Shown here piece by piece: positions 59,961 to 63,673 of a stretch of DNA of 64,000 nucleotides. The notes beneath the pieces were generated by a model. It saw only the letters and a program-made list of their open reading frames with translations. It was not told the origin of the DNA and ran no database searches. The stretch lies in NCBI GenBank assembly GCA_902779945.1, contig CACZDN010000005.1:184691-248690 (forward strand). The letters are read 5' to 3'. The translations under genes and the position numbers were made by a program. This DNA is from Oscillospiraceae bacterium (GTDB taxonomy: Bacteria; Bacillota; Clostridia; Oscillospirales; Oscillospiraceae). The first letter of the stretch is position 1; each line of letters opens with the position of its first letter.

Positions 59961-60779
59961 TTACTTGATGGCGACAATGCCGGCGCCGGTCTTCTCGTTG
60001 AAGGCCTCGACTGCGCCGTCCTGCAGAGCCTCGACAAGGGCCTTGATCTCGGGACGGTCCTCATCGCCGCGGCGGACGGCCACGAGGTTTGCGTAGGTCT
60101 GGGCGGCGTTGCCGGAGGCGTCCTCGATGGCGAGCGCGTCGGTGGTCTTGAAGCCGGCGTCAAGCGCGTAGTTATAATTGATGACGGCGATGGTGCCCTT
60201 GGCGCTGTTCTTCAGCAGGGAGGGGACAGTGTCGGCCTGGGCGGCCTGGACGGTGTAGCCCTTGGCGTCGACGATGTCGAGCACGGAGGGGGCGGTCTCA
60301 ACGGAGGCGTCCTCCGGCAGGACGATCAGGCCCTCCTGCTGGAGCAGGAGCAGGGCGCGGGTCTGGTTGGAGACGTCGTCGGGGACCAGGATCGTGGCGC
60401 CCTTGCCGATCTCCTTGAGATCCTTGAGAGTGGTGCTGTAGATGCCCATCGGCTCGTAGTGGACAAGGCCGGCGGAAACGAGGTCGGTGCCGTTGGCCTC
60501 ATTGAAGCTGTTCATGTAGGGGGCGTGCTGGAAGTAGTTGGCGTCCAGGGTGCCGTCCTGCAGGGCGGTGTTGGGGAGCACGTAGTCGTCGTAGATCACG
60601 ATGTCGAGTTCGATGCCCTGTTCGAGGAGCTTGGGCTTGACGGTTTCAAGCAGTTCAGCATGAGGGGTGGAGCTTGCGCCGATCTTCAGCTTTACGTTTT
60701 TGTCGGCGGCGAGGGCGGTCGCGGACAGCACAGAGATGAGCAGGACCGCGCAGAGGATCAGAGAGATGGCTTTTTTCAT
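59961..60779 (-). CDS. metQ: methionine ABC importer binding protein MetQ
   Basis: A 272-residue NlpA/MetQ-family protein. The mature part begins VKLKIGASSTPHAELLETVK, and DIVIYDDYVLPNTALQDGTL (about 59-78) with DANYFQHAPYMNSF (about 79-92) is the family's ligand-binding region. The signal peptide ends SATALAADKN, and the Cys of a lipobox is missing, although most Gram-positive MetQ proteins are lipoproteins. It may be held at the membrane by its importer or be released. It is the last gene of metNIQ, 23 nt after metI. Confidence 0.93.
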   Translation of the reverse strand: MKKAISLILCAVLLISVLSATALAADKNVKLKIGASSTPHAELLETVKPKLLEQGIELDIVIYDDYVLPNTALQDGTLDANYFQHAPYMNSFNEANGTDLVSAGLVHYEPMGIYSTTLKDLKEIGKGATILVPDDVSNQTRALLLLQQEGLIVLPEDASVETAPSVLDIVDAKGYTVQAAQADTVPSLLKNSAKGTIAVINYNYALDAGFKTTDALAIEDASGNAAQTYANLVAVRRGDEDRPEIKALVEALQDGAVEAFNEKTGAGIVAIK

Positions 60780-60802: not shown

Positions 60803-61483
60803 TCAGCGGGAAATACGTTTATCGGTGCGGTGCGCGATGGCGGTCCCCACCTCCTGAATAATCTGAACGATTATTACAGTCAGAAAAACACAGATCCACT
60901 TGATATCGGGATTGAAGCGCTGGTGGCCGTAGCTGATGGCAATCTGCCCGAGGCCCGTGCCGCCGATGGTGGACGACATGGCCGAGTAGCCGAGGATGGT
61001 GACCATCGAGATCATGCCTCCCATAATGAGCGAGGGCTTTGCCTCCGGCAGCAGGACCTTGGTCACGATCTGGAAGTTGTTTGCGCCCATGGACTGGGCC
61101 GCCTCGATGACGCCGGCATTGACCTCCCTGAGCGAGGACTCCACCATACGGGCGATGTACGGGGAGGCCGCGATGACCAGCATGACGATCATGGCGCTGT
61201 TGCCGAGGGAGGTGCCCACCACCAGCTTTGCCACCGGCAGCATCGCCACCATCAGAATGATGAAGGGGATGGAGCGGAAGAAGTTCACGATGATGCCGAG
61301 CGTGCGGTTGAGCCAGGGGATGGGGAAGATCCCCTCCCGATCCGTGATGTTGAGCACCACGCCCAGCGGCAGGCCGATCGCGTAGGAAATCGCGGTGGAG
61401 ATCACGGTCATATAGATCGTTTCCCAGACGCCGCGCTGCAGGATACCAGCGTCCCAGAGCTTGTAAAAGGTTTCGGAGAGCAT
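60803..61483 (-). CDS. metI: methionine ABC importer permease MetI
   Basis: A 226-residue permease with five or six helices. TIYMTVISTAISYAIGLPLG near residue 23 and the EAA loop AAQSMGANNFQIVTKVLLPE are typical of MetI. The ATG at 61483 follows AGGAGGAGG and shares one base with the metN stop (TGATG), showing translational coupling. With MetN and MetQ it imports D- or L-methionine. Confidence 0.94.
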   Translation of the reverse strand: MLSETFYKLWDAGILQRGVWETIYMTVISTAISYAIGLPLGVVLNITDREGIFPIPWLNRTLGIIVNFFRSIPFIILMVAMLPVAKLVVGTSLGNSAMIVMLVIAASPYIARMVESSLREVNAGVIEAAQSMGANNFQIVTKVLLPEAKPSLIMGGMISMVTILGYSAMSSTIGGTGLGQIAISYGHQRFNPDIKWICVFLTVIIVQIIQEVGTAIAHRTDKRISR

Positions 61484-62472
61484 CAGTCCTCCTCCTTCCA
61501 TTTGACAGGGCTGTTTTTGAGCCAGGTGAGGATCTTGGACGCCTGGTTGTCGTCCGTGGGAAGCTCGATGATCATGTGGCCGTATACGATGCCGTCAAAG
61601 TCCTTGGTGTCCGCAAACAGGATGTTGACCGGGGCCTGACAGTCCAGCGTCATGCGGGAGATGATCGGTTCCTGGCTGTGCATCCCGTCGAAGATCAGAC
61701 GTATCTTCTTGCCGCCGGTGGTGTCGATGGCGGCGCGGTCCTGGGGCAGGATGAGCTCGCGCGCGATCTGGGAGCGCGGGCTTGTAAACACCTCGCTCAC
61801 GCGGCCCATTTCGGCGATGCGGCTCTGGTCGATGACCGCGACCCGGTCGCAGATCTGGTCGATGACCTTCATCTCGTGGGTGATGACGATGATCGTCACG
61901 CCCAGGGTCTTGTTGATTTTTCTCAAAAGCTCCAGAATGGAGCGGGTGGTGTTCGGGTCGAGCGCGGAGGTCGCCTCGTCGCAGAGCAGATAGTGCGGGT
62001 CGGAGGCGAGGGCGCGGGCGATGGCGACGCGCTGCTTCTGTCCGCCGGAGAGCTGGGACGGGTAGGCGTTTGCCTTCTCCTCCAGCTGTACAACCTTCAA
62101 AAGCTCGAGGGCCTTTTCCTTCGCGGGCTGGCGCTTGACGCCGGCGATCTCCAGCGGGAAGGTAACATTATGCAAAACGCTGCGCTGCTCCAAAAGATTG
62201 AAGCCCTGGAAAATCATCGAAATGCTGCGGCGCATTTTCAAAAGCTCCGGGCGGGGGAGCGTCGTGATGTCCTGCCCGTCGATGATCACGCTGCCGTAGG
62301 TCGGGCGTTCAAGGAGATTGATGCAGCGCACCAGCGTGCTCTTTCCCGCACCGGACAGGCCGATGATCCCGAAGATTTCACCGTCCTGGATGCTGAGATT
62401 GATGTCCCGCAGCGCCTCCACGTCGCCCGAGGAGGAGGAGTAGGTCTTACACAGATTCTTGAGCTCGATCAT
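61483..62472 (-). CDS. metN: methionine ABC importer ATPase MetN
   Basis: A 329-residue ATPase. Walker A GLSGAGKST (about 38-46), the MIFQGFNLLEQRSVLHNV region specific to MetN, the signature LSGGQKQR, Walker B YLLCDEA and the switch His in VITHEM are intact. The C-terminal NIL domain (about 245-325) binds methionine and inhibits transport when methionine is high. AAAGGA lies 9 nt before the ATG. The transcript starts over 220 nt upstream and passes through a Met-rich short ORF and a terminator, so expression is likely controlled by attenuation. Confidence 0.95.
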   Translation of the reverse strand: MIELKNLCKTYSSSSGDVEALRDINLSIQDGEIFGIIGLSGAGKSTLVRCINLLERPTYGSVIIDGQDITTLPRPELLKMRRSISMIFQGFNLLEQRSVLHNVTFPLEIAGVKRQPAKEKALELLKVVQLEEKANAYPSQLSGGQKQRVAIARALASDPHYLLCDEATSALDPNTTRSILELLRKINKTLGVTIIVITHEMKVIDQICDRVAVIDQSRIAEMGRVSEVFTSPRSQIARELILPQDRAAIDTTGGKKIRLIFDGMHSQEPIISRMTLDCQAPVNILFADTKDFDGIVYGHMIIELPTDDNQASKILTWLKNSPVKWKEED

Positions 62473-62508
62473 CTGTCGGTTTCCTTTCGGAGAAAATTCG
62501 CCTGCTGC

Positions 62509-62547
62509 AAAAACAGACCCGGAAAACTCACATGTTTTCCGGGTCTG
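62509..62547 (-). terminator. attenuator terminator in the metNIQ leader
   Basis: On the - strand CAGACCCGGAAAAC (62547-62534) pairs perfectly with GTTTTCCGGGTCTG (62527-62514), followed by TTTTTG. It begins 18 nt after the Met-rich leader ORF and ends 36 nt before metN, so it would block metNIQ unless relieved. Confidence 0.93.
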
Positions 62548-62565
62548 ATAAGCTGCTTTCAGCGA

Positions 62566-62673
62566 TCAAACGGAGAGGACACATGTCGAGTCGTACTTTT
62601 TGGCGCGCATCATCATGCACATGCGGCACATGTACATCTCCATCATCATGCTGTTGACGGAAGCAGAACGCAT
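62566..62673 (-). CDS. methionine-rich leader peptide of metNIQ
   Basis: A 35-codon ORF starting ATG at 62673 with AAAGGAG 11 nt upstream, ending TGA at 62568-62566. Ten of 35 codons are Met, nine of them in residues 9-22, which read MMMEMYMCRMCMMM, along with two Cys. It lies between a perfect promoter and a rho-independent terminator upstream of the methionine importer. This is the arrangement of classical amino-acid attenuators: a ribosome stalled at the Met codons when charged tRNA-Met is low would change leader folding and prevent termination. I see no SAM riboswitch or T-box in the leader. The sensing model is inference; the ORF and its order with promoter and terminator are read directly. 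Confidence 0.82.
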   Translation of the reverse strand: MRSASVNSMMMEMYMCRMCMMMRAKKYDSTCVLSV

Positions 62674-62706
62674 AGCGGACCCGACTCCTTTCCTTGAATT
62701 GCCTGC

Positions 62707-62735
62707 ATTATAAACCAGCCCCTCCACACTGTCAA
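62707..62735 (-). promoter_or_regulatory. consensus promoter of the metNIQ leader
   Basis: On the - strand TTGACA (62735-62730), 17-bp spacer, TATAAT (62712-62707): a perfect sigma-A consensus. The predicted start near 62700 leaves about 27 nt before the leader peptide ATG. Confidence 0.95.
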
Positions 62736-62839: not shown

Positions 62840-63673
62840 TTAAACGTAGTGGAAGCGGAAGTAGTCGACGATGAGCGCAATGCCCGCCGCGGCGATGCTG
62901 CGGCCGTCCGGCATCAGGAACGCATCGGAGAGAAAACCGTAATCGTCGTTTAGGAAGGAGGCGAGATCGGCGTAGTATGCTCCGGTATTGACGCACACCT
63001 GGCGTATCCAGGCGTTGGCGCGGGAGATGAGCGCGGGGTCGAGCCCGTCCGCGCCCTGGTAGTTGCTGCTGACGGAGCCGATGGAGCAGACAATGATGCT
63101 CGTACTGGGACTTGCGCTGCGGAGATCGTCGATGAGACGGGTGTAGCCCTCGATAAACTCCTGTTCACTCGTCCCGGCGAGACCGTCGCCGCCGAGGTAG
63201 AGCACCATGGTCCTGGGCCTTGTGACCATGGCGGCGTTGGCCGCGGTGATCTTCGAGCCGTCATAGAATACGATGCTCGTCTCCGCAGCGTTCTTCGCGA
63301 CAAAGCCGCTCCCGTCATCCGTCCAGATCTGGGCGTTGACGCCGTCGCCGTAGTTGGAGGCATAGCTCTTCAGGCCGAGGATGGTCTTGTCGCACAGGAA
63401 GGTCATGCCGAATACGGTTTCGAGATTGCCCTTGCTGTTTTCCGGAAGGGTGATCAGGGTGCTGCCGGCGGCGTTCTCCATGCCGACGATCTCCCCGTCG
63501 GAACTGCTTCTCACGCTTCTCTCAATCTCTCCGAGCACCAGCGTACCGTCCAGCCTCTCGCCCCGGGCCTTCTGCGACATGGCAAAAATCAGCCCGACCA
63601 GCAGCGCAACGAGGCACAGCAGGATCGCCGCAGCCCAGAGCAGGTTTTTCGCGTTGGACAGACCGTTTTTCAT
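62840..63673 (-). CDS. membrane-anchored SGNH-hydrolase-like protein
   Basis: A 277-residue protein with a short basic N-terminus and one membrane helix (about 11-33), then an extracellular alpha/beta domain resembling SGNH/GDSL hydrolases: a Gly-rich TMVLYLGGDGLAG segment in the position of the block III (GxND) motif, where the usual Asn-Asp is changed, and SIIVCSIGSVSSNYQGADGL. The catalytic Ser of block I is not obvious, so activity is uncertain. Such proteins often act on glycan O-acetyl groups. ATG at 63673 follows AGAGGGG; the longer frame from 63694 lacks a site. Confidence 0.65.
   Translation of the reverse strand: MKNGLSNAKNLLWAAAILLCLVALLVGLIFAMSQKARGERLDGTLVLGEIERSVRSSSDGEIVGMENAAGSTLITLPENSKGNLETVFGMTFLCDKTILGLKSYASNYGDGVNAQIWTDDGSGFVAKNAAETSIVFYDGSKITAANAAMVTRPRTMVLYLGGDGLAGTSEQEFIEGYTRLIDDLRSASPSTSIIVCSIGSVSSNYQGADGLDPALISRANAWIRQVCVNTGAYYADLASFLNDDYGFLSDAFLMPDGRSIAAAGIALIVDYFRFHYV

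Follow-up and report, generated by a model that had tools for sequence, protein, structure and literature searches.

What controls the methionine transporter operon metNIQ at this locus, and which signal does that control read? We use "the window" for the whole stretch of 64,000 nucleotides of Oscillospiraceae DNA, from an uncultured gut bacterium, that was analysed. The original prediction had described, before metNIQ, a perfect promoter, then an ORF of 35 codons, ten of them Met, and then a 14-bp hairpin followed by five T. This arrangement was confirmed: on the minus strand a perfect promoter is followed by AAGGAG, the 35-codon Met-rich ORF, the 14-bp terminator and then metN-metI-metQ. From comparison of this locus with its relatives, we propose with high confidence that the leader is a ribosome-mediated transcription attenuator acting on metNIQ, with AUG as its regulatory codon, and it is very likely that it switches metNIQ on when ribosomes run short of methionine. 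The features of the locus are as follows.

62707..62735, minus strand: sigma-70-type promoter TTGACA-17-TATAAT, 12 of 12 consensus bases
62685..62690, minus strand: Shine-Dalgarno sequence AAGGAG of the leader ORF, from the sequence
62566..62673, minus strand: leader peptide ORF with ATG start, 35 codons and 10 Met including the start, MRSASVNSMMMEMYMCRMCMMMRAKKYDSTCVLSV, from the sequence and relatives
62608..62649, minus strand: putative regulatory Met-codon run, codons 9-22, from a codon table over 46 anchored leaders
62649-62635, minus strand: RNA segment 1, the start of the Met run, from the 1:2 pairing
62567..62592, minus strand: RNA segment 2, the last leader codons, predicted partner of segment 1 or segment 3, from duplex and swap tests
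62525..62547, minus strand: RNA segment 3, the terminator 5' arm, loop and first 3'-arm bases, predicted antiterminator partner of segment 2, from pairing tests
62509..62547, minus strand: predicted intrinsic terminator (3:4), 14 bp then TTTTT, from a terminator scan and relatives
61483..62472, minus strand: metN, methionine ABC transporter ATPase, TIGR02314 at E=1.7e-108, under the curated cut-off
60803..61486, minus strand: metI, permease, NF008049 at E=2.6e-62, 210.3 against a cut-off of 212
59961..60779, minus strand: metQ, substrate-binding lipoprotein, NF008285 at E=5.9e-37, under the curated cut-off

The three transporter genes have the MetN, MetI and MetQ models as their best NCBIfam matches, all below the curated cut-offs. 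Four promoter-like sites were found in the 2.5 kb scanned, against 0.7 expected. For terminators the stretch yielded three candidates where 2.1 were expected, and the leader hairpin (62547-62514), with 14 pairs, a 6-nt loop and the TTTTT tail, is stronger than the two others. Of the 400 ATG-started ORFs of at least 25 aa in the window, none but the leader ORF, whose residues 9-22 read MMMEMYMCRMCMMM, packs 9 Met into 14 residues; the runner-up has 5, and none of 20 mononucleotide shuffles of the window produced such an ORF. The leader peptide had no match in NCBIfam (E up to 1) or Pfam (E up to 5), and the leader matched no Rfam family at gathering score. The sole Rfam match in the window at that score lies away from the leader; it is a lysine riboswitch (RF00168, 39072-39222, minus strand, 84.3 bits). 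Upstream of the attenuator, a 277-aa ORF (62840-63673, minus strand) had no NCBIfam match at E up to 1.

The leader was followed into other genomes, and 77 leaders, selected by their Met content, were collected: 59 from genus g1, 17 from 12 other genera of the family and one from another family, 14 genera in all. The genes behind them are metN, metQ-metN, metA or metY. When 199 relatives were searched with the peptide, 66 had a match at E up to 10, and same-genus genomes gave the strongest ones. Among the metN upstream regions retrieved in this way 47 of 49 carry the leader, the exceptions being one without it (L048) and one that starts inside a leader (L051); since these loci were found by the leader itself, the figure is not a frequency. 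A further 40 metN upstream regions had no leader match, in a survey that leaves aside the metN copies of genomes G002, G020 and G088: 11 hold a more divergent leader, 15 a T-box and nine, as judged by eye, a metQ-like gene end directly upstream, while five have none of these, one being cut by a contig end (L077) and one a remnant (L085). Weakly matching loci without an adjacent metN (L002, L053-L069, L072-L074, L118 and L119) contain no ORF with 6 Met in 14 residues.

Wider profile searches extended this picture. At the level of the order, 6 of 394 genomes matched at E up to 0.05, the window's own genome included; these matches comprise L070, from another genus and before metN, and L071, from another family and before metY, and the other three hold no Met-rich ORF. 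In the family, 27 of 300 genomes matched at E up to 0.1, and 18 leaders were recognised among the 24 new loci read, the remaining six (L143-L145, L147, L148 and L150) not being leaders. One of the 18, L128, is a copy of the already counted L086; of the other 17, eight precede metN, eight precede metQ followed by metN, and one (L141) precedes metA with metY behind it. The search set no gene requirement, and all 18 stand before methionine uptake or synthesis genes. The metA gene behind a leader exceeds the cut-off of NF047918; metY, truncated where its locus ends, scores 474.8 against 495.1 for TIGR01326. Among 391 genomes of the class six weak matches appeared (E 0.007-0.07), none a leader, and among 398 genomes of the phylum a single weak one (L159, E 0.011) without an ORF with 6 Met in 14 residues; these negatives are no proof of absence, because a 36-residue profile may miss divergent leaders. 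Two relatives bear names; both are metagenome genomes, one labelled Oscillospiraceae (goat reticulum) and the other Ruminococcaceae (RUG14036).

The elements around the ORF accompany it. A promoter-like pair lies no more than 110 nt before the leader with at least 9 of 12 consensus bases in 57 of the 58 first-set leaders with enough upstream DNA (11 or 12 bases in 54) and in all 17 second-set leaders (11 or 12 in 10), both being raw counts without a chance level. A purine-rich stretch ahead of the leader start is visible by eye in many of the relatives inspected. By an automatic rule, leader ORF and terminator occur together in all 60 first-set leaders and in 16 of the 17 of the second set, 76 of 77 overall; the one missed, L130, has an imperfect stem that is seen by eye.

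Several further arrangements were observed among these loci. Two genomes each hold two metN paralogues with a Met leader of their own (G095 with L017 and L032, G071 with L036 and L030); the paralogous MetN proteins are about 40% and 70% identical to the MetN of the window. An extra leader with terminator, outside the 77, stands in G032 (L041), where the contig ends before the gene, and seven genomes of the genus of L071 hold no second leader copy. Six loci (L130, L134, L138, L140, L146 and L071) have a second tiny ORF between the Met-leader terminator and metQ (metY in L071), located around 1.68-1.80 kb on the oriented sequence. An Arg-Met-Cys stretch is common to these ORFs (CGAATGTGTCC / CGAATGTGCCG), and a GTGTCC...GGACAC inverted repeat, noted by eye, overlaps the ORF in L134, L138 and L140. 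This ORF is perhaps a second, cysteine-related control.

Within the leader, conservation follows the Met codons. Leaders hold 7-12 Met, start included, with a median of 10 over all 77, which were chosen for Met, and the residues outside Met drift in the alignments (41 of 43 distinct peptides in one, 18 in another); the three invariant columns of the 18-row alignment are Met, including the start. When 46 leaders were anchored behind the run, which 14 of 60 could not be for failing the anchor pattern, four positions were ATG without exception, the anchor itself fixing one of these, and another two were ATG in 45 of the 46. Insertions and deletions in the run are whole codons. Premature stops fall behind the run, where the RNA is retained and the peptide is not: GACTC is kept in L026, L039 and L075, GCCATC in L017, L030, L036 and L047, and only GACGCTC in L008 and L015. 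The Met run thus looks kept as codons and the leader end as RNA. Since the leaders were chosen by Met content, one with a stop inside the run would escape this count, and L085 may be such a broken-run case missed by the selection. In this locus (G024), the promoter, the leader start (MRNNRHSYMLMPG...) and a terminator persist before metN, while the Met run and segment 2 are largely gone; from its sequence it looks like a natural deletion of the switch.

The leader RNA offers three pairings: segment 1 with segment 2 (1:2), the last leader codons of segment 2 with the terminator 5' arm and loop (2:3), and the terminator itself (3:4). Counted from the last Met codon, the best 2:3 duplex begins at an offset of 13-17 nt in 44 of 60 leaders and outside that range in 16; the 13-17 nt would be about where a ribosome stalled on that codon ends. 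The original prediction had suggested that an ACATGT late in the ORF could pair with the terminator loop, and this proved to be part of the 2:3 helix. To compare partners, segments were swapped between leaders, with an 80% similarity cut in the first set and no cut in the second. For 2:3, own partners gave -18.0 kcal/mol against -14.7 for swapped ones in 27 first-set leaders (0 of 20,000 permutations), and -18.3 against -14.1 in 16 second-set leaders (0 of 20,000). For 1:2, with a segment 1 of 24 nt in the first set and 27 nt in the second, the values were -14.8 against -12.4 in 29 leaders (0 of 20,000) and -15.3 against -13.1 in 16 (19 of 20,000). The second-set tests omit L128, as a copy of L086, and L130, as lacking an automatic terminator; the permutations leave relatedness in, which inflates the result, and the second-set L127 is a near copy of the first-set L070. 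Only 4 of the 27 leaders have their own segment 3 as the single best partner, five of the 27 (L022, L024, L042, L044 and L108) lie within one standard deviation of shuffled segment 2, and 1:2 is weak in L105, L106, L133, L134 and L141. The 1:2 partners themselves differ by species: GAUGGAG/CUCCAUC, GAUGGGUAUG/CAUAUCCAUC and GAUGGCU/AGCCGUC.

Pair counts were made on an alignment of 29 of 50 non-redundant leaders, picked for similarity. In 2:3, 92.1% of cells are paired for the 7-bp outer helix against 60.0% for the inner one; one pair is G-C in 12 sequences and A-U in 11. The controls for 2:3 were mixed: the percentage paired, the cells changed on both sides and the covariation score were above all 500 shuffles, while the pairs changed on both sides (279 of 500) and the further pair types (243 of 500) were not above them. 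Slid registers were 33.5-54.5% paired against 79.9%. For the terminator, shifting the register by one column raised the score from 68.6% to 78.1%, which an alignment gap probably explains. A self-complementary folding of the Met run is visible in single-sequence folds of 20 leaders, as folds only and without a statistic of its own. The original prediction had looked to relatives for Met codons kept among drifting ones, a conserved terminator and covariation in an antiterminator; the first two hold, and the covariation appears on some measures and fails on two of five against shuffles. Taken together, these comparisons indicate that the leader RNA has the 1:2 / 2:3 / 3:4 logic of the trp/his attenuators, with three mutually exclusive pairings that fit better within than between species.

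The signal itself is indicated by sister species. In the same genus 15 metN copies have a T-box, 13 of them over the Rfam gathering score and two (L100 and L102) under it, and the specifier is ATG in all of them, 14 by pattern and L090 by eye. A metN tree of 74 rows, each of at least 240 aa, comprises 55 with the leader, 15 with the T-box and four with neither; the T-box label needs four changes, at least three of them forced by well-supported branches, and in G007 the T-box falls within a clade of leader-bearing metN. From sequence, then, the same gene in relatives appears to be controlled by either of two devices that read tRNA-Met. Of 102 genomes of the genus, 92 have a SAM-I riboswitch, and the one copy in the window's genome lies directly before metK (TIGR01034, above cut-off). 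At the metNIQ locus neither a T-box nor a SAM riboswitch was found, as originally stated: at gathering score the window has no T-box (RF00230), and it has no SAM-I riboswitch (RF00162); elsewhere in the genome eight T-boxes were found at E up to 0.001, three over cut-off. As Met T-boxes stand at other metN genes of the genus, Met-tRNA charging is indicated as the signal, and from the SAM-I copy before metK together with the T-box alternation we infer Met-tRNA rather than SAM as the signal for metNIQ.

The attenuator would then work as follows. With ample Met-tRNA, the ribosome would cross the Met run, arrive at the stop codon, which lies close to where segment 2 ends, and mask much of that segment, so that the 3:4 terminator forms and transcription ends before metN. 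Internal AUG codons are read by the elongator tRNA-Met; when this charged tRNA is scarce, the ribosome would stall on a Met codon, open 1:2 and free segment 2, and 2:3 could form before the 3' arm of the terminator is made, so that metNIQ is transcribed. In a leader without a ribosome, 1:2 would form and termination would be the default. What is sensed would be the charging of elongator tRNA-Met and not SAM. Translation, stalling, the masking of segment 2 at the stop codon and the polarity of the response are the parts that we infer. Initiation of translation requires methionine too, so that under severe starvation the leader might lose its ribosomes altogether, which would shift the outcome towards termination. 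The sequences of the 77 leaders and their 1:2, 2:3 and 3:4 pairings support trp/his-type attenuation, as had been predicted with methionyl-tRNA as the proposed signal; that prediction did not include the 1:2 pairing, the T-boxes of sister species or the spread to metQ, metA and metY.

Four other readings were weighed against the attenuator that reads Met-tRNA. The run also contains Cys codons, and the charging of both Met and Cys might be sensed, making the leader a sulfur-amino-acid attenuator. Of 46 anchored leaders 41 have a Cys four codons ahead of the R/C/H-A motif, and 76 of 77 leaders have at least one Cys; however, in the other 5 of 46 it is lost as TGC to CGC, the codons next to it in the run change as NGC or NRC, which fits a kept RNA pairing, and 10 of 77 leaders have none or one. 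With Cys codons ranging from 0 to 6 per leader and varying as the RNA pairing would have it, the earlier suggestion of cysteinyl-tRNA as a second signal did not find support, and we regard the combined sensing as rather unlikely.

Behind the run, 56 of 77 leaders keep A-[QH], with Ala written by each of its four codons (GCG 31, GCC 16, GCT 8, GCA 1) and Gln as CAA in 43 and CAG in 8. This retention is not predicted by a pure codon-speed model and is unexplained by the RNA pairings examined, and because of it we considered an arrest peptide, in which a nascent chain ending Met-Arg-Ala-Gln would stall the ribosome in response to methionine or SAM within the exit tunnel, a stall that would then be read by the same RNA switch. 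The motif is, however, absent from 21 of 77 leaders, among them the window's own, which reads RAKK; a stall at Ala-Gln would place the ribosome over the start of segment 2; the residues between the start and the Met run are poorly conserved; and the sister species have Met T-boxes at the same gene. On balance an arrest peptide is distinctly unlikely.

The Met/Cys spacing is reminiscent of metal-binding peptides, and the ORF might encode a functional Met/Cys-rich peptide, for example a Cu(I) binder, with the terminator as an ordinary gene separator. Conservation at the RNA level disfavours such a peptide: its C-terminus is dispensable as peptide yet kept as RNA in several leaders, the 1:2 and 2:3 pairings are matched within species, and the genes behind the leaders of the family search, 18 of 18, serve methionine uptake or synthesis, so that we give this reading very little credence. 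That the leader is a remnant of a riboswitch or T-box, elements that are common at methionine genes of Firmicutes according to the accessible parts of two reports (PMC3771891, PMC7058034), or a product of chance is hardly credible, as no Rfam match at gathering score exists in the window or in L001, L070, L071, L105 and L107, the T-boxes before metN of sister species do score well, and leaders occur in 14 genera.

With the Met-tRNA attenuator as the preferred reading, a broader picture can be offered as tentative, one that we would sooner doubt than assert: in a rumen/gut Oscillospirales-like lineage, about ten AUG codons might gauge elongator against initiator Met-tRNA, Ala-Gln might tune stall and release, and the whole might form a portable module swapped with Met T-boxes before metNIQ, metQN, metA and metY. 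Methionine is a special case because initiation uses the same amino acid, and owing to this shared use a Met leader makes the sensing of elongation versus initiation shortage testable. One genus in which the same gene has either a Met T-box or a Met-codon leader, with several changes on the metN tree, is a compact natural experiment in regulator replacement, and the Met-leader signature can be used for finding methionine genes in uncultured gut bacteria.

Among known systems, the trp, his, leu, thr, phe and ilv attenuators of E. coli and Salmonella have, in the available part of their description, a leader ORF with regulatory codons, 1:2 / 2:3 / 3:4 pairings and an intrinsic terminator (PMC1183508). 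The Met leader is like them in its regulatory-codon ORF, its three pairings and its terminator before the operon; unlike them, its regulatory amino acid is methionine, which has one codon and is carried by both an initiator and an elongator tRNA, its first gene is a transporter and its host belongs to the Firmicutes. In that phylum, leader peptides are reported for His and for Leu/branched-chain amino acids, as in the His leader before hisS/hisZ of bacilli (PMC2965389) and the Leu-rich leader of ilv-leu in Staphylococcus aureus (PMC5794164), and the accessible portions of both papers include T-box/leader exchange. A codon-run peptide and this exchange are common to those leaders and the Met leader; they differ in serving other amino acids and in belonging to Bacilli, and no Met leader stands in those portions of the two papers (PMC2965389, PMC5794164).

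Met T-boxes sense tRNA-Met charging before genes of methionine transport or synthesis, for example in the met leader of S. aureus (PMC3771891), where the initiator tRNA is preferred, and in the met operon of L. lactis (PMC7058034), as far as the available text of these reports goes. Like the Met leader they read tRNA-Met charging and are found before metN in the same genus; unlike it, they bind uncharged tRNA directly, without translation. The SAM-I riboswitch is likewise an RNA control of methionine genes, but it reads SAM through an aptamer, and its copy in the window's genome precedes metK, not metNIQ; the accessible part of one report describes a Xanthomonas SAM-I that responds to uncharged initiator tRNA as well (PMC7270179). 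The Cys leader ORFs known from Actinobacteria resemble the Met leader in carrying codons for a sulfur amino acid; the accessible text describes Cys runs near the stop codon, no conserved terminator, and no conserved RNA element at the methionine operons of the genomes examined there (PMC1262725). PMC2494555 gave no match for metN, methionine transport or leader peptide. In the open-access literature, among the matches listed and in the text they provide, codon-run leaders are described for Trp, His, Leu, Ile/Val, Thr, Phe and Cys, none for Met, and we found no earlier description there of a Met-codon attenuator, preprints and most subscription papers being outside this scope. What is known in this leader is the attenuation logic; what would be new, as judged from sequence and the descriptions found, is methionine as the regulatory amino acid.
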